Position numbers and translations under genes: made by a program. Positions 33,189 to 39,070 of a stretch of 64,000 bases of DNA are shown here, piece by piece. The notes under the pieces were generated by a model that worked only from the letters and a program-made list of their open reading frames with translations, ran no database searches and was not told the DNA's origin. Origin of the DNA: Pedobacter montanisoli (GTDB lineage Bacteria > Bacteroidota > Bacteroidia > Sphingobacteriales > Sphingobacteriaceae); assembly GCF_022809115.1 (NCBI RefSeq), contig NZ_JALGBH010000001.1:1240001-1304000 (forward strand), read 5' to 3'. Position 1 is the first letter of the stretch. The number at the start of each line of letters is the position of its first letter.

Positions 33189-33551
33189 ATGGCCGTTCAT
33201 AACCAAATAGGGAAAAAAGGAGAACAACTTGCCGCAGAATTCTTACTGCAAAAGGGTTATGAAATATTAGATACCAACTGGAACACAGAAAAAGCAGAAA
33301 TAGATATTATTGCCTATCTTAACAAGATTATTGTTTTTGTAGAAGTTAAAACCCGCACCAATCTTGATTTTGGCCTGCCTGAAGATTTTGTAACAAAAGC
33401 TAAAGAAAAGCTGTTAGAAAATGCGGCACAGGCTTATCTAGAAATCATGGAGCATAATGGTGAAATTCGGTTCGATATCATTTCAGTGGTATTTGATCAT
33501 TCGGGTAAAGCAACCCTAAATCATATTGAAGATGCATTTTGGCCGTATTAA
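33189..33551 (+). CDS. YraN family (UPF0102) endonuclease-like protein
   Basis: Small protein of 120 residues with the restriction-endonuclease-like fold. Key residues are in the N-terminal GKKGEQLAAEFLLQKGY helix and the catalytic-like motif AEIDIIAYLNKIIVFVEVKTR, where Asp and the ExK (EVK) motif match the PD-(D/E)XK pattern. Its precise role is not known. Family members are linked by position to DNA metabolism, and here the gene begins 1 nt after dnaG. The 3' end overlaps the next gene by 20 nt. Confidence 0.87.
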   Translation: MAVHNQIGKKGEQLAAEFLLQKGYEILDTNWNTEKAEIDIIAYLNKIIVFVEVKTRTNLDFGLPEDFVTKAKEKLLENAAQAYLEIMEHNGEIRFDIISVVFDHSGKATLNHIEDAFWPY

Positions 33552-34602
33552 TTTAATCAGTTCATGTTTTTTTCTGGGTTTATTCCTGGTTTGTGCTTGT
33601 AATGCAGGTACTTCAAGATATATAGGTTTTAGCTCACCTTATCAGGGACAGAACATTAAATCGGGAACAGATATCAAAGTAAAATTAGATCTGCCCAAAA
33701 ATTTAACTGCAGATACCATAAGCTATTTTGTGGATGGGAATTTATACCATGAAACCATATCGGGAGCTGATACGTTAACTATAAAAACACATCAGATGAA
33801 ATTAGGTTTCAGATTGATCAATGCTATCGTTAAATTGAAAAATATGCGAGATACCATTGCAACCAATGTGGTAATTACATCGGCAATAGAACCTAAAAAA
33901 CTGAGCTATAAAGTGCTAAATAAATTTCCGCACAATACAGATGATTATACGCAGGGGCTAAGTTTTGATAAAGGTTATTTGATAGAAAGCACGGGTAGAA
34001 AAGGTTCTTCCAAACTTAAATACGTAAACATACAAACAGGAAAAGCGATCAAAGAAACCAGTCTCGATGCCCAGTATTTTGGAGAAGGTTCTGTTAAAAT
34101 TGGCAATGAAATTATTGTGCTGACCTGGCAGGAAGATAGGGGATTGATCTATGATGCCGAAAGCTTAAAACAAAAAGGTTCATTTCTTTATGGAGCAAGC
34201 AAAGAAGGCTGGGGGCTTACCTTTGACGGTAAAAACTTGCTTAAAAGTGATGGCTCTAACAAAATATGGCGATTAAATGCACAGAATTATAAGGAAGAGG
34301 GCTATATAGAAGTTTATGACAATACAGGTCCTGTAAATGAACTTAATGAATTGGAATACATCAATGGTAAAATTTATGCCAATGTTTATACCAGTACTAA
34401 AATCATAATCATTGACCCCTTAACAGGAGTTGTAGAAGCATACTTGGACTTAAAAGATCTTGTGCCTAAAAACTACTTCAAAACAGAGGATGATCGAAAT
34501 AACAATGTACTTAACGGTATCGCTTATGATCCGGCTACCCAAACATTGTATGTAACCGGCAAAAAATGGCCTTGGCTGTATCAAATTAAAATAGCCAATT
34601 AA
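33532..34602 (+). CDS. Glutaminyl-peptide cyclotransferase family lipoprotein
   Basis: Protein of 356 residues. The N-terminal hydrophobic segment (about 8-22, ISSCFFLGLFLVCACNAG) ends in a plausible lipobox, so it is likely an exported lipoprotein. After a beta-sandwich-like region (about 25-120), the C-terminal part is a five-bladed beta-propeller of the glutamine cyclotransferase family: FPHNTDDYTQGLSFDKG, STGRKGSSKLKYV, LTWQEDRGLIYD, GWGLTFDGKNLLKSDGS, and LNGIAYDPATQTLYVTGKKW. The enzyme would convert N-terminal glutamine of peptides to pyroglutamate. I start it at ATG 33532; a TTG at 33526 is also possible. It overlaps the YraN gene by 20 nt. Confidence 0.88.
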   Translation: MHFGRINLISSCFFLGLFLVCACNAGTSRYIGFSSPYQGQNIKSGTDIKVKLDLPKNLTADTISYFVDGNLYHETISGADTLTIKTHQMKLGFRLINAIVKLKNMRDTIATNVVITSAIEPKKLSYKVLNKFPHNTDDYTQGLSFDKGYLIESTGRKGSSKLKYVNIQTGKAIKETSLDAQYFGEGSVKIGNEIIVLTWQEDRGLIYDAESLKQKGSFLYGASKEGWGLTFDGKNLLKSDGSNKIWRLNAQNYKEEGYIEVYDNTGPVNELNELEYINGKIYANVYTSTKIIIIDPLTGVVEAYLDLKDLVPKNYFKTEDDRNNNVLNGIAYDPATQTLYVTGKKWPWLYQIKIAN

Positions 34603-34606
34603 AAAC

Positions 34607-35140
34607 TTAATCTTTACCTGTGGTTTCTCTTATATAGCCGTTATAAGTTATGTTTTGTTTGTTATTACTGCTTAAAGATAAAGACGCATAACCAGTTTTG
34701 CCAATGTTTAAACTCATACGGTAATTCTCATTTACATCGTTAATGTTTATCTCAATATCCCATGAGCCTTTCTTGTTCTTTTTGCTTTTATATTTAAAGT
34801 CTTTTGATTTAAACTTTACGCCACCTTCATTTTGTCCTATTGGAGCGTTATAAGAACGTCCATAATAAGGCAGGTATGCAATTACACTATCGGGAGCAAT
34901 TTTAAGAGTGTAACCCTGTCCGTTCAGATTAATAGAACCAGTTGCCATTCCATTACCTATTTTGCTCATAATACGATTAAGCTCTGTTGAGTTAGAAGGG
35001 GTAGCATTGTCTGCTATAAAAATGAAATTTTTAGCTTCAACTATTTTGGCTATCATAGCCTCATCGGGTTTTTGAGCAAAAGTATGGGCAGTAATAAAAA
35101 TGCTTATCAGGCTAACAAATAAAAACTTGAGCGATTTCAT
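34607..35140 (-). CDS. Secreted DUF4251-type protein
   Basis: Protein of 177 residues with a signal peptide (about 1-22, ITAHTFAQKP). The mature part has the order seen in the Bacteroidota DUF4251 family: a helix AMIAKIVEAKNFIFIADNATP, then TGSINLNGQGYTLKIAPDSVIAYLPYYGRSYNAP, a KDFKYKSKKNKKGSW basic strand and a C-terminal pattern of paired strands. Function is not known. I start it at ATG 35140, which begins the signal peptide; the upstream ATG at 35170 adds ten residues without support. It is convergent with the glutaminyl cyclase gene (4 nt apart), and lies downstream of the Rieske operon on the same strand. Confidence 0.78.
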   Translation of the reverse strand: MKSLKFLFVSLISIFITAHTFAQKPDEAMIAKIVEAKNFIFIADNATPSNSTELNRIMSKIGNGMATGSINLNGQGYTLKIAPDSVIAYLPYYGRSYNAPIGQNEGGVKFKSKDFKYKSKKNKKGSWDIEININDVNENYRMSLNIGKTGYASLSLSSNNKQNITYNGYIRETTGKD

Positions 35141-35231: not shown

Positions 35232-35272
35232 AAAAGCTGGCCAGAGAACAAAATGTTTCTGGTCAACTTTTT
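35232..35272 (-). terminator. Probable terminator after the Rieske operon
   Basis: An imperfect stem of about 18 bp pairs AAAAGCTGGCCAGA (from 35232) with TCTGGTCAACTTTT (to about 35271). On the minus strand it is followed by a T-rich stretch. It lies 6 nt after the Rieske gene. Confidence 0.65.
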
Positions 35273-35277
35273 GAAAA

Positions 35278-35739
35278 CTATGAAATTGTTGCAGTTAATG
35301 TATTGCCCGAAATAGCTGTACTATATATCTTTAAAGCCTGGGTGGTACCGCCATCATTGGGCTGTGTAATTACGCTTCCAGAAGCACTGTATTGTGAACT
35401 GTGTAGGCTGCATTGAATTAAATTGTTTGCCTGTATCCAGTTTAATGCGCCACCTTGATGTGGGCAGGTTGCCTGTGTTGCAATAAATGATGACGTGGTA
35501 TTGCCTGTGGCTGTACGTACAAACAATACACCTCCAGACGATAGAAACGAGCCTACGGTTAACAATTGCGTGCTCAGATCAACATTTACTTTGGTGCCCG
35601 ATGTTCCTCCTCCACCCGGAGTTCCACCACCAGCAGGACTAGGGTCATTAGATTTACTTCCACAGCCCGATAGGCAACTTCCAGCGCATACTACGGCTAT
35701 ACCAAGCCCTAGCGATTTGATAAATTCATTACGTTCCAT
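35278..35739 (-). CDS. Rieske [2Fe-2S] lipoprotein
   Basis: Small periplasmic redox protein of 153 residues. A lipoprotein-type signal with lipobox LSGC (Cys26) is followed by a Gly-rich linker (about 37-50, GGGTPGGGGTSG). The Rieske domain supplies the cluster ligands in TCPHQGG (Cys92, His94) and CSLHSSQYSASG (Cys110, His113). The absence of a transmembrane helix and the flexible linker suggest a tethered electron carrier rather than a subunit of a bc1-type complex. It is the last gene of a five-gene minus-strand unit with an ECF sigma factor, an anti-sigma-like protein, a YceI protein and a DUF5777 barrel. Electron donor and acceptor are not encoded nearby. Confidence 0.9.
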   Translation of the reverse strand: MERNEFIKSLGLGIAVVCAGSCLSGCGSKSNDPSPAGGGTPGGGGTSGTKVNVDLSTQLLTVGSFLSSGGVLFVRTATGNTTSSFIATQATCPHQGGALNWIQANNLIQCSLHSSQYSASGSVITQPNDGGTTQALKIYSTAISGNTLTATIS

Positions 35740-35751
35740 AACTTTTTCTTT

Positions 35752-36687
35752 TTAGTAAATTGTAGATTTTATATCTGGATTTTTAGATTTGAAAAGACTA
35801 AAATTTCTTGAGATACTGAACCCAAACCTTACACCTCCATTCTTCCAGGATTTTTTGGTATCGGTTAAAAAATTATTCTCGTTAATATATTCGGCGTTTA
35901 TAAAATTTAAAGAGAACACGTGACCACCCGTTTCTATTTCGAGACCAACCCCCAGGGGATTGTATTGAGCTACGCTTAAGCGAGTTGGTCTCGAAAGACC
36001 ATTAATTAAAGTATAATCTACAATGAAAGATAAACGTTTGGTGATTTTAAAACGCCCAGCAAAGCCTATAGTAAATAAATTCTTGCTATCTAAAATATCA
36101 GTAGTCATATATCTTATTAAATAAGAGGGTATGGCCTGCAATGATAAACGCTCAGAAAATTTTCTAGAAATGATGGGCTGAATCAGGTAGCTGGTTCTGT
36201 GATTAAAACTTATAAACTCATTAGCAAATGGTGTTCTGGTAGCAACTGCACCTTGTAACAGTAGGGTTATATTTAGAGGTATGCCGTCATTAGTTTGCTG
36301 TAATATTTTGTGTTTGATAAACAAATTGTATAACTCATCATGCTTGCTACGGCCAATACCTACGGTTAGATTGTTGGTTATGCCATAATCAAAACCAATG
36401 TATAAATCTGTAGCTACATCTAATCCATATAAAGTATGTGAACTACCAAAGTTACCACCAATATCGCCAAAGCGATGAGTAATAACAAGATCCAAATCAT
36501 GCTTCTTTTGTGTTTCGGTAGATTGCGATAGCACTAATCTGGGAGATTTAAAAGTTGCCTCAACCTTATTAAACTTCATTGAACTGTTTAAAGTATTTAA
36601 TAAAGAATCGGTATTTTGGGCGGCAGCTCTTAAAGCTAATATCAGTGTCAGCAAAATTAAATAGACAATGAGTTTAGATTTTTTCAT
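35752..36687 (-). CDS. DUF5777-type outer-membrane beta-barrel protein
   Basis: Protein of 311 residues with a signal peptide (about 1-23, ALRAAAQNTD) and a C-terminal chain of alternating strands with aromatic residues. The patterns DLVITHRFGDIGGNFG, LYGLDVATDLYIGFDYGITNNLTVGIGRSKHDELYN and LSFIVDYTLINGL are those of the DUF5777 family, which I know as predicted outer-membrane barrels often found with YceI-like and Rieske-like proteins. It would sit in the outer membrane; its transported or sensed ligand is unknown. It is 12 nt upstream of the Rieske gene and 2 nt downstream of the YceI gene, so clearly in the operon. Confidence 0.82.
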   Translation of the reverse strand: MKKSKLIVYLILLTLILALRAAAQNTDSLLNTLNSSMKFNKVEATFKSPRLVLSQSTETQKKHDLDLVITHRFGDIGGNFGSSHTLYGLDVATDLYIGFDYGITNNLTVGIGRSKHDELYNLFIKHKILQQTNDGIPLNITLLLQGAVATRTPFANEFISFNHRTSYLIQPIISRKFSERLSLQAIPSYLIRYMTTDILDSKNLFTIGFAGRFKITKRLSFIVDYTLINGLSRPTRLSVAQYNPLGVGLEIETGGHVFSLNFINAEYINENNFLTDTKKSWKNGGVRFGFSISRNFSLFKSKNPDIKSTIY

Positions 36688-36689
36688 GA

Positions 36690-37250
36690 TTATTTTTTTA
36701 GAGGGCTTAATGTTCCCTGAAAGCTAACTTTTATGATTTCGGCTATTTTGGTAAATACCAGCTTGGGTATTTCAATATGGTGGACTGCGCAGGTAACATC
36801 AAAATTAGAACTGATTGAGATAACCCCGTTTTTAATGTTGATTTTTCCTGCAATGGTTCTGGCTACATCTACTCCATGTACAGATAAAATTCCCTTGGCA
36901 CTTACCGTATAATCGCCATCTTTTGTCCAATCTATTAAAGGTTCTATACTTCCCTTAAACTTGGCAATCGGGTATTTGTCACTTTCCATATAGTTTTCAT
37001 TGAAATGTTCCTGCATCAGCTTTTTTTCAAATTCAAAACTTTTTATGGGAATTTGGATGTTTAGTTCCTGTTTTGGTAAAAGCATAACAGCATTGGCTGC
37101 ATTGCTAGATGCCCTGATATCTTCAATAGGTGTTGATGAAAATAGGCTAACTTTTAAGCCTTTGCCTATATAGGTTTGTGCATACGACAAATAGCTAATG
37201 CCCAACATTAAGCCTAAAAGGGCTATTGTTTTAATTTTTACTAAAGTCAT
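36690..37250 (-). CDS. YceI family periplasmic protein
   Basis: Lipocalin-like protein of 186 residues with a signal peptide (about 1-25, GISYLSYAQ). The conserved YceI features are LKVSLFSSTPIEDIRASS, then FEKKLMQEHFNENYMESDKYPIAKFKGSI, and the C-terminal GILSVHGVDVARTIAGKINIKNG block. YceI proteins bind polyisoprenoids such as quinones in an internal cavity; this family knowledge, with the Rieske gene in the same unit, suggests quinone or redox work in the periplasm. The start at 37250 overlaps the end of the preceding gene by 20 nt, so translation may be coupled. Confidence 0.9.
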   Translation of the reverse strand: MTLVKIKTIALLGLMLGISYLSYAQTYIGKGLKVSLFSSTPIEDIRASSNAANAVMLLPKQELNIQIPIKSFEFEKKLMQEHFNENYMESDKYPIAKFKGSIEPLIDWTKDGDYTVSAKGILSVHGVDVARTIAGKINIKNGVISISSNFDVTCAVHHIEIPKLVFTKIAEIIKVSFQGTLSPLKK

Positions 37251-38421
37251 AATTCAATTTTAATGATATACCATTTGATTTAAGTGGAACACTGCCTTGT
37301 CCGATTCCCGTTAAAGGAATTTTAAAGTAAGGTTCAATGCCTACACTAAATCTTTTATTTTCTAGCTTAATATTGTAGGTAGCTGAAATATCCAGTACAT
37401 TTAATAAGTGTTGGTTGGCATTGTTTACAGAGCTTATCCTATCGGCTCTGTTAGATTCAGGGGTATATTTAAAAATATACTTTTCATTAAGCATTATATA
37501 ACTGGACAAACCTGCGTTTATGGTAATATTTCTTTTAGCATTATCTGTAACCGAGTAGGAAGCTCTTAGCGGAATCTCGAGCACTTTACAAGCAGCTTTA
37601 ATGTTTGATATGATGTTTTGTGTATTGGGATTGTTAAAGGTATAATCAAAGCTTCTGGCATCATAATTTTTAGAACCATAGACTAAACCCGTTTGAACAG
37701 CCAATTTTTTGGTTAACTGAACACCGATGCTTAAGCCTGCAAAAACCCCGGATTTCCCGCCAATCATCGTACTGGTCGAACTAAAATCTGGCCCTGCGGT
37801 AAAGGCCAAAGTAAGGGGTAGCTTTAACTGGTTTTTTATAGGTGTTTCTTCGTTTTGACTTGTTTTTTCTTGAGGCGCTGTGACTATACTTGCAGAATGT
37901 TGCGTGGTATCTAAAACTAAGCTGGTCGAGGACTGGGTTACATTAGGTATAATCTGATTGTTATTAACTATTATGTTCTGTATGGTATAATCTTCACCGA
38001 TTGCTGTGTTAGCGCTTGGTTTAGTTTGAGTAGGAATAGAATAGTTGATAATATTGTTTTCTAATTGGTTTGATTTTTTTGAAGTATAGAGCCTATTTGT
38101 ATGATCTGAATCTGATTTAGGTGGCAAAACAGGAGATTGACCAATACTATTAAGGTTAGTGTAATTGTTATGCTTAGAAGATTGGATTTTGTTTTTGGCA
38201 ATATCAGACATTTCCGGCGATTTGCTGTTTCGGTAATACACTGCAATTCCAAAAGAAATAAAAAGAAGGATGACACTGGCATATCGAAAGAAAATACCCC
38301 GATCTCTTTTGCGTAGCTTTCTCTCCATCTTCAGCCATGATTCTTCCTCAAAATCGGGAAACTGGTCATTTATTCTCGATCTGAAGATTCTATCAAAGTC
38401 TTTGTCATCCAGTTCTTTCAT
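37231..38421 (-). CDS. Anti-sigma-like membrane protein with beta-barrel-like C-terminus
   Basis: Protein of 396 residues. The N-terminal 40 residues (KELDDKDFDRIFRSRIND, then FEEESWLKMERKLRKRD) are charged and likely cytoplasmic, one membrane helix follows (about 45-62, YASVILLFISFGIAVYY), then a low-complexity linker rich in Asn, Ser and Thr (about 70-190), and a C-terminal domain of strands (about 200-396) with PorT-like or outer-membrane-barrel-like patterns (GVFAGLSIGVQLTKKLAVQTGLVYGS). Its position 3 nt after an ECF sigma gene suggests that the N-terminal part is an anti-sigma factor. The mixture of an inner-membrane helix with a barrel-like domain is odd but occurs in this phylum. Family assignment is uncertain. 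Confidence 0.72.
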   Translation of the reverse strand: MKELDDKDFDRIFRSRINDQFPDFEEESWLKMERKLRKRDRGIFFRYASVILLFISFGIAVYYRNSKSPEMSDIAKNKIQSSKHNNYTNLNSIGQSPVLPPKSDSDHTNRLYTSKKSNQLENNIINYSIPTQTKPSANTAIGEDYTIQNIIVNNNQIIPNVTQSSTSLVLDTTQHSASIVTAPQEKTSQNEETPIKNQLKLPLTLAFTAGPDFSSTSTMIGGKSGVFAGLSIGVQLTKKLAVQTGLVYGSKNYDARSFDYTFNNPNTQNIISNIKAACKVLEIPLRASYSVTDNAKRNITINAGLSSYIMLNEKYIFKYTPESNRADRISSVNNANQHLLNVLDISATYNIKLENKRFSVGIEPYFKIPLTGIGQGSVPLKSNGISLKLNYDFSKN

Positions 38422-38424
38422 TTT

Positions 38425-38973
38425 TTAGTTTATTTTTTGTTGTGCTGTGGGTAAAGTATCGGCTATCATTTTTTTGAGGTGCTCCCTGGCCTTAAATAAA
38501 TTGGATTTTGATGTGCCAACTGATATAGATAGCATAGATGAAATTTCTTCATGAGAATAGCCGTCAATGGCAAAAAGATTGAAGACCGTTCTGTAGGCAT
38601 ATGATAATTGTTGCACTAATTTTATGAGATCGGCATAGTTTAAGTGCGAAAGAATATTGTCTGTTTCCAACAAGTCATGGTTAGGGTTAAGCTCTTCCAT
38701 TCTTATTTTTTTTATTTGTTTTCTATAATGGTCTACAGATGTGTTTATCATTATTGTGCTAATCCAGGCATTAAAAGATTTGCCGGTATCGTAATGTTTA
38801 ATGTTGATGAAAACTTTCATAAAACCATCGTTAACCAACTCAATTGCTTCATCCTTGTTTTTTGCATACCGCAAACAAATGCGTATGGCATAACCATAAT
38901 AGAGCTTGTAGAGATCTTTTTGAGATCTTCTATTACCTCTTATACAGCCATTAATTATTTCGGGTGTAAGCAA
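38425..38973 (-). CDS. ECF-type RNA polymerase sigma factor
   Basis: Sigma-70 family protein of 182 residues with region 2 (LYKLYYGYAIRICLRYAKNKDEAIELVNDGFMKVF, about 20-54) and region 4 (LSYAYRTVFNLFAIDGYSHEEISSMLSISVGTSKSN, about 118-153), joined by a short linker, and no region 1.1 or 3. This is the ECF form usual in Bacteroidota, controlled by a membrane anti-sigma factor. The next gene, 3 nt downstream, is the likely anti-sigma. It heads the YceI/DUF5777/Rieske operon and probably regulates its own unit. No clear TAnnTTTG element is seen upstream, consistent with an alternative promoter. Confidence 0.93.
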   Translation of the reverse strand: MLTPEIINGCIRGNRRSQKDLYKLYYGYAIRICLRYAKNKDEAIELVNDGFMKVFINIKHYDTGKSFNAWISTIMINTSVDHYRKQIKKIRMEELNPNHDLLETDNILSHLNYADLIKLVQQLSYAYRTVFNLFAIDGYSHEEISSMLSISVGTSKSNLFKAREHLKKMIADTLPTAQQKIN

Positions 38974-39070
38974 AATTTTAAATTATTTTTTGATAACGAT
39001 TACGTTGTTTTTTCGATTAAGGTTGCCTGGTCTTGAAAAAAAATAAAATGAAAAATATGATATAAATAAA

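Follow-up and report, generated by a model that had tools for sequence, protein, structure and literature searches.

A possible outer-membrane-stress switch with its effector module in a five-gene operon of Pedobacter montanisoli

We analysed a stretch of 64,000 nucleotides (nt) from the genome of Pedobacter montanisoli (contig NZ_JALGBH010000001.1, positions 1,240,001 to 1,304,000 of the forward strand), which is called the window here. Five open reading frames (ORFs) on the minus strand, from position 38973 down to 35278, encode an extracytoplasmic function (ECF) sigma factor, a Dma-like anti-sigma protein, a YceI-family protein, a DUF5777 barrel and a Rieske lipoprotein. All five genes of the initial annotation were confirmed at their places, and these neighbours look like one self-controlled unit. 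With a probability of about 0.55, we read the unit as an outer-membrane-stress switch together with its effector module. The features are as follows.

38425..38973, minus strand: ECF sigma factor, 182 amino acids (aa), TTG start; Pfam Sigma70_r4_2 (2.1e-14) and Sigma70_r2 (5.1e-14)
37231..38421, minus strand: Dma-like anti-sigma protein, 396 aa; structure model, fold match with OmpA and NspA, hydropathy
36690..37250, minus strand: YceI-family periplasmic lipocalin, 186 aa, signal peptide-like start; Pfam PF04264 (1.6e-7)
35752..36687, minus strand: DUF5777 outer-membrane barrel, 311 aa; Pfam PF19089 (2e-82), 12-strand model
35278..35739, minus strand: Rieske [2Fe-2S] lipoprotein, 153 aa, lipobox C26; Pfam PF00355 (1.7e-7)
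39001..39027, minus strand: promoter-like element GGCAACC-N16-CGTA, at which the unit's own sigma factor is proposed to act; also present 5' of units of relatives
35238..35265, unstranded: 10-pair hairpin 3' of the Rieske gene, possible terminator; consensus scan

By their coordinates, the sigma and Dma-like genes are 3 nt apart, the Dma-like and yceI genes overlap by 20 nt, and gaps of 2 nt and 12 nt precede the DUF5777 and Rieske genes. The sigma start is supported by the nearest relatives at the same site, which start at the equivalent place. Many sigma genes of the group have TTG or GTG starts (38973 in the window), which may hold translation low.

Control by its own sigma factor, proposed in the initial annotation, is what a promoter-like element shared by linked and unlinked copies suggests. 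The element, GCAACC-N16-CGTA, was first seen in the upstream regions of relatives' units. The window has exactly one exact match (39027-39001), and it ends 28 nt 5' of the sigma start. In 64 loci of the genus (L031-L094, 867 kb, spacer 15-17) there were 89 matches, versus 0-4 in each of ten order-1 Markov control sequences. These were divided among sigma genes (43, of which two at 408 nt are probably chance), Lipoprotein_15 genes (23), one-haem lipoprotein genes (17), yceI (4) and other places (2, one being the Lipoprotein_15 case of locus L071).

When the element was sought within 400 bases 5' of each transcription unit in these loci, 36 of 37 sigma-Dma units had it, as did 22 of 30 Lipoprotein_15 units (plus 6 at one mismatch), 16 of 20 cytochrome c units (plus 3 at one mismatch) and all four units that begin with yceI. 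The remaining 281 units gave no exact match and one at one mismatch. Exceptions were L077, with a spacer of 15 and not 16, and L056, where the element is absent 5' of the cytochrome gene; in L071 and L082 it lies just within a start that was called too far upstream. Four sigma units without an adjacent Dma gene were counted separately: L093, in which Dma is cut by the contig end, has the element and the other three do not.

Independent cases matter, because the pattern was derived from the very genus loci in which it was counted. The unlinked Lipoprotein_15 gene of genome G037 has the exact element, found by a whole-genome scan after the pattern was fixed, and that of genome G059, from a reading of 28 of 30 Lipoprotein_15 loci (L286 and L294 left out), has it with one mismatch. 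Locus L148, from a genus genome outside the discovery set, has it 5' of yceI. Sigma-Dma units of other genera have the element as CGTG (L144, L147, L163) or with a 15-base spacer (L129), and the L137 unit carries a CGAG form. In a set of named genomes (the best 80 of at least 578 DUF5777 loci), the CGTA or CGTG form occurred somewhere in the locus in 16/17 cases with sigma and Dma near DUF5777 (all but L236), versus 16/62 without Dma. From these comparisons it is very likely that the sigma-Dma pair controls its own operon and its targets via the element.

In the P. montanisoli genome, spacers of 15-17 gave 9 matches versus 10 in the reversed control. Only two have the 16-base spacer, namely that of the operon and one inside a 472-codon frame, so the regulon of this genome may be this operon alone. 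Three of the nine matches (L170-L172; spacers 17, 15 and 15) are outside any frame of more than 120 codons. Among the matches listed for five genomes, 20 further ones were followed: 16 are inside ORFs. Of the remaining four, one is 5' of an unlinked Lipoprotein_15 gene, one 5' of the glutathione peroxidase (GPx) gene of G027 and one 5' of a serine-hydrolase-like gene, which we took to be chance; for the last, no gene was found behind it.

The 396-aa second protein had been annotated as an anti-sigma factor. It does adjoin the sigma gene, but it is not of the ordinary type: it is Dma-like and probably itself the outer-membrane sensor, as judged from its predicted structure. The only Pfam family above the cut-off was OMP_b-brl_2 (4.2e-8). 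No anti-sigma family matched this protein above the cut-off, so the label anti-sigma rests on the architecture and on the position behind the sigma gene. We used an AlphaFold model built on 38 relatives. The model has helices at 6-18 and 26-66 and eight high-confidence strands within 203-392, and the predicted local distance difference test (pLDDT) score is below 50 across most of residues 70-189, which we read as a disordered tether some 120 residues long. The top hydropathy window (2.16) falls within the predicted helix 26-66 and marks a single membrane helix at about 43-61. In the part with the two predicted N-terminal helices, D10 and W29 are invariant across the 38 sequences. The barrel compares well with the folds of OmpA (Z 18.4) and NspA (Z 18.1). 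An ordinary anti-sigma factor was dropped as an assignment given this model of helix, tether and barrel.

Dma proteins are described in PMC13088901 as built of four parts: an N-terminal domain, one membrane helix, a disordered tether and, at the C-terminus, a barrel. The second gene of the operon looks like a Dma gene, and its N-terminal part is predicted to hold the sigma factor. Short proteins of about 250-280 aa match the N-terminal part of the Dma alignment alone, in the P. montanisoli genome (C2:216494-216907) and in many genomes of the family. By sequence, they may form a second, barrel-less anti-sigma-like family.

A YceI match was found in 43 of 60 genomes of the genus, and a strong Dma match in exactly those 43; two further genomes with Dma N-terminal matches only (E 6e-4 and 9e-4) were not counted. 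Among 81 genomes of the family, with Dma counted at E up to 5e-68, 46 had both Dma and DUF5777 and 26 had neither. Fisher tests of co-occurrence, which ignore shared ancestry, gave p 2.6e-15 and 1.1e-12. The complete order sigma-Dma-YceI-DUF5777-Rieske was present at 10/80 named-genome loci and 2/40 phylum loci; the named loci include Pedobacter polaris, P. steynii, Arcticibacter eurypsychrophilus, Mucilaginibacter pankratovii and M. rivuli. The five-gene grouping is more than chance, because the complete order recurs in six other genomes of the 60 and in these wider loci.

The chromosomal site is also informative. Pfam identifies the upstream neighbour of the operon as a phosphoglucose isomerase gene, and a hairpin with a T-rich tail (39087-39075) stands between them. 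At the same site, flanked by phosphoglucose isomerase and, at the opposite end, by DUF4251 and glutamine cyclotransferase, some genomes hold the full sigma-Dma-yceI-DUF5777-Rieske set, and L034, L036 and L038 hold yceI-DUF5777-Rieske with the element 5' of yceI and the sigma-Dma pair elsewhere beside Lipoprotein_15. It means that the window operon is one state of a separable regulator-target pair. The DUF4251 gene (34607-35140, minus strand) and the glutamine cyclotransferase gene (33526-34602, plus strand) are beside the operon in about ten genus loci that were read. We left them outside the unit because the hairpin behind the Rieske gene separates them from it; the consensus scan gave 7 terminator-like sites versus 3.4 expected, which is a weak basis for this hairpin.

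The proteins behind the switch form a core that is widespread in the phylum: YceI, DUF5777 and a Rieske or one-haem lipoprotein. DUF5777 was present in 115/296 sampled phylum genomes. We took 40 of these 115 loci, of which 39 were readable; 33 have YceI near DUF5777, and 35 have a candidate carrier there (cytochrome c, Rieske or CXXCH). The corresponding numbers for the 80 named loci were 71 and 65. In the genus, the yceI-DUF5777 locus has the one-haem lipoprotein in 31/43 genomes; the remaining 12/43, the window included, have the Rieske lipoprotein only. The redox character proposed in the initial annotation is in agreement with this choice of carriers beside YceI. The idea of quinone sensing is unsupported; no result points to the signal.

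The Rieske protein keeps its ligands C92, H94, C110 and H113 and the lipobox C26 in 14/14 aligned relatives. Among solved structures, the YceI profile finds other YceI proteins (5ixg ranks first, E 1.1e-9), and these relatives include polyisoprenoid-binding proteins. DUF5777 is modelled as a 12-strand barrel (mean pLDDT 89.8), which favours the predicted link with the outer membrane; its nearest folds are KdgM (Z 18.3), FapF (17.9), NanC (17.3), a COG4313 channel (16.9) and FadL (about 13), and no convincing sequence relative was found among solved structures. No CXXCH motif is present in the five window proteins. In open-licence PubMed Central we found no paper on DUF5777, none joining YceI, Rieske and sigma in Bacteroidetes, and no description of the core of YceI, DUF5777 and a Rieske or one-haem lipoprotein. 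For YceI in connection with ECF operons and oxidative stress, the one paper that came up concerned Bacillus. In Cytophaga aurantiaca (L200:2187-5443), genes read from the sequence as a sigma factor, an RskA-type anti-sigma-like protein and a CHRD-like repeat protein precede cytochrome c-yceI-DUF5777; this sigma/RskA-like pair is perhaps another regulator for the same core.

Lipoprotein_15 (PF03640, three repeats) was found in 34/60 genus genomes, and 33 of them are within the 43 that have the module. It is divergent from sigma-Dma in L040, L042 and L071-L092, usually behind the same promoter-like element. A protein search of the P. montanisoli genome gave no Lipoprotein_15 match, and the PF03640 profile was silent there and in controls alike. 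Glutathione peroxidase was considered in 29 of 30 loci (L256 and L304-L316 among them; G005 left out), with the element exact in 7. The 24 loci with the module gave 7 exact, 6 with one mismatch and 11 with two or more, and the five without it gave 2, 2, 2, 3 and 4 mismatches; in genome G022 the exact element is 28 nt 5' of the GPx match. GPx was not counted as a regulon member. Against it, the stretch is conserved without the module and resembles a housekeeping-type promoter; TTTG/TAnnTTTG promoters of this type are described in PMC7366714.

Three known systems can be compared with the operon. The Dma/Das systems of Bacteroides thetaiotaomicron (PMC13088901) also have a sigma gene followed by an anti-sigma gene with N-terminal domain, membrane helix, tether and barrel, and further genes downstream in the same operon. 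Their targets there are nigD1, DUF4858/DUF4943 genes and polysaccharide utilization loci, whereas here they are YceI, DUF5777 and electron-carrying lipoproteins. The Dma class has a neighbouring sigma factor of group ECF21, and here the adjacent ECF sigma factor is identified at the level of Pfam r2/r4. The regulator seems to add a member to the published Dma class, with a target set not found in the searched literature.

EcfO-Reo of Bacteroides fragilis and Phocaeicola vulgatus likewise combines a sigma factor with an anti-sigma factor that extends to the outer membrane, as predicted here for the Dma-like protein, and that reaches from the cytoplasm to the surface. Outer-membrane stress is proposed as the signal (PMC13114119), and induction has been reported both on long exposure to oxygen (PMC13114119) and with toxins that attack the envelope (PMC9308784). 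Unlike here, its regulon includes nigD genes and a lipopolysaccharide glycosyltransferase (PMC13114119, PMC9308784).

BcnA/LcoA of Burkholderia (PMC9113575) also pairs a YceI lipocalin with an electron-transfer protein, the two being linked genetically. Its loss raises membrane lipid peroxidation, and the authors propose reduction of a lipocalin-bound quinone and detoxification of peroxyl radicals. The partner there is cytochrome b561, while here it is a Rieske or one-haem lipoprotein, with an outer-membrane barrel and Dma-type control. The likeness is one of working and not of membership, because the operon and the four scanned neighbours have no cytochrome b561.

Taken together, the operon would work as follows. 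In the resting state, the Dma-like protein would use its N-terminal part to keep the ECF sigma factor bound at the inner membrane, as sequestration in the Dma class suggests, and its long disordered tether is predicted to lead to the C-terminal barrel, seated in the outer membrane. Damage or remodelling of the outer membrane may alter the barrel or the tether and free the sigma factor, by comparison with EcfO-Reo and Dma/Das. The sigma factor would then read GCAACC-N16-CGTA 5' of its own operon, and in relatives probably also the element 5' of the Lipoprotein_15 gene and of the [cytochrome c]-yceI-DUF5777-[Rieske] operon. YceI would carry an isoprenoid, probably menaquinone, and the lipid-anchored Rieske or one-haem protein may exchange electrons with it, with DUF5777 as the putative outer-membrane partner. 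We consider this redox module likely. The purpose may be to supply the outer membrane with reducing power, so that lipid radicals or oxidised lipids are quenched in the way suggested for BcnA/LcoA; we infer this physiological role from BcnA/LcoA and EcfO-Reo, and a protective purpose is conceivable but somewhat doubtful.

Several observations weigh against this scheme. The ligand of YceI and the role of DUF5777 are guesses, the best matches of the DUF5777 barrel are sugar, amyloid and COG4313 channels, and no cytochrome b561 was found in the five operon proteins and four neighbours scanned; the rest of the genome was not searched for it. The element gave 269 matches genome-wide in the 43 module genomes versus 194 in the reversed control, and 64 versus 108 in 17 genomes without the module. 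Because this excess is weak, the case rests on the position of the element. L236 and L137 have sigma-Dma and no CGTA/CGTG match, and in one subgroup the element is about 170-310 nt 5' of the cytochrome gene. In the family, 7 genomes have DUF5777 without strong Dma and 2 have Dma without DUF5777, and sigma-Dma near DUF5777 is missing at 35/39 phylum loci outside the family. Only 7 of the 43 genus genomes have the complete contiguous operon (window included) and 1 has it cut by a contig end; 13 have sigma-Dma beside the yceI operon in a different order or orientation, and 22 have the two at least 70 kb apart or on separate contigs. The initial annotation had taken lack of conservation as a unit as evidence against its proposal, and narrowly the contiguous form is indeed a minority; however, where the regulator lies elsewhere, the element still precedes the target operon.

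Other explanations were also considered. DUF5777 might form a channel through which a hydrophobic compound passes (a quinone, an isoprenoid, a fatty acid or an antibiotic), with YceI as periplasmic carrier, the iron protein modifying the cargo and the switch responding to it. The channel folds near the DUF5777 model (KdgM, FapF, NanC, COG4313 and FadL) and the polyisoprenoid binding of YceI relatives are consistent with such transport, but sharing a barrel fold says nothing about function, no protein of known structure is convincingly related to DUF5777 in sequence, and the variable carrier is always an electron carrier and never an enzyme family. We regard transport as unlikely.

It is improbable, to our judgement, that the operon primarily serves envelope remodelling or vesiculation like Dma1/Dma2, with outer-membrane composition or release of outer-membrane vesicles as the main function and redox secondary. 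Vesiculation and surface lipoproteins are under the control of characterised Dma pairs (PMC13088901), and three of the target kinds here are lipoproteins or barrels; electron transfer is suggested, however, by carriers that retain their metal-binding residues and by the exchange of one redox protein for another. A respiratory or extracellular route, in which the lipoproteins and YceI lead electrons from quinol to the cell surface, would suit surface or periplasmic carriers (Rieske, one-haem c) alongside an outer-membrane barrel. We hold it to be quite improbable, since neighbouring ORFs of relatives have at most one to three CXXCH motifs, a 12-strand barrel is presumably small for a haem conduit (by the strand number of MtrB), and envelope-stress-type sigma control would be unusual for respiration. 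MtrCAB-like porin-cytochrome conduits have multihaem cytochromes, unlike the CXXCH-free proteins of the window. That sigma-Dma and the yceI operon are merely adjacent by chance is extremely improbable: contiguity is a minority arrangement in the genus, but the element is common to unlinked copies and the presence and absence of Dma and YceI match.

The finding touches the questions of how Bacteroidota keep the outer membrane free of oxidative damage and what Dma-type anti-sigma factors control beyond gut Bacteroides. With one sharp promoter-like element to mark about 1-3 transcription units as the regulon, the signal and the roles of the poorly known DUF5777, Lipoprotein_15 and YceI with a lipoprotein carrier become testable. 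As a tentative wider view, a Dma-type switch that reads the outer membrane might directly command a phylum-wide electron-delivery machine at the outer membrane, made of quinone-loaded YceI, a Rieske or one-haem lipoprotein that can stand in for each other, and the DUF5777 barrel, as an answer of Bacteroidota to oxidative outer-membrane damage; since each target keeps its own copy of the promoter element, regulator and machine could come to lie apart on the chromosome.

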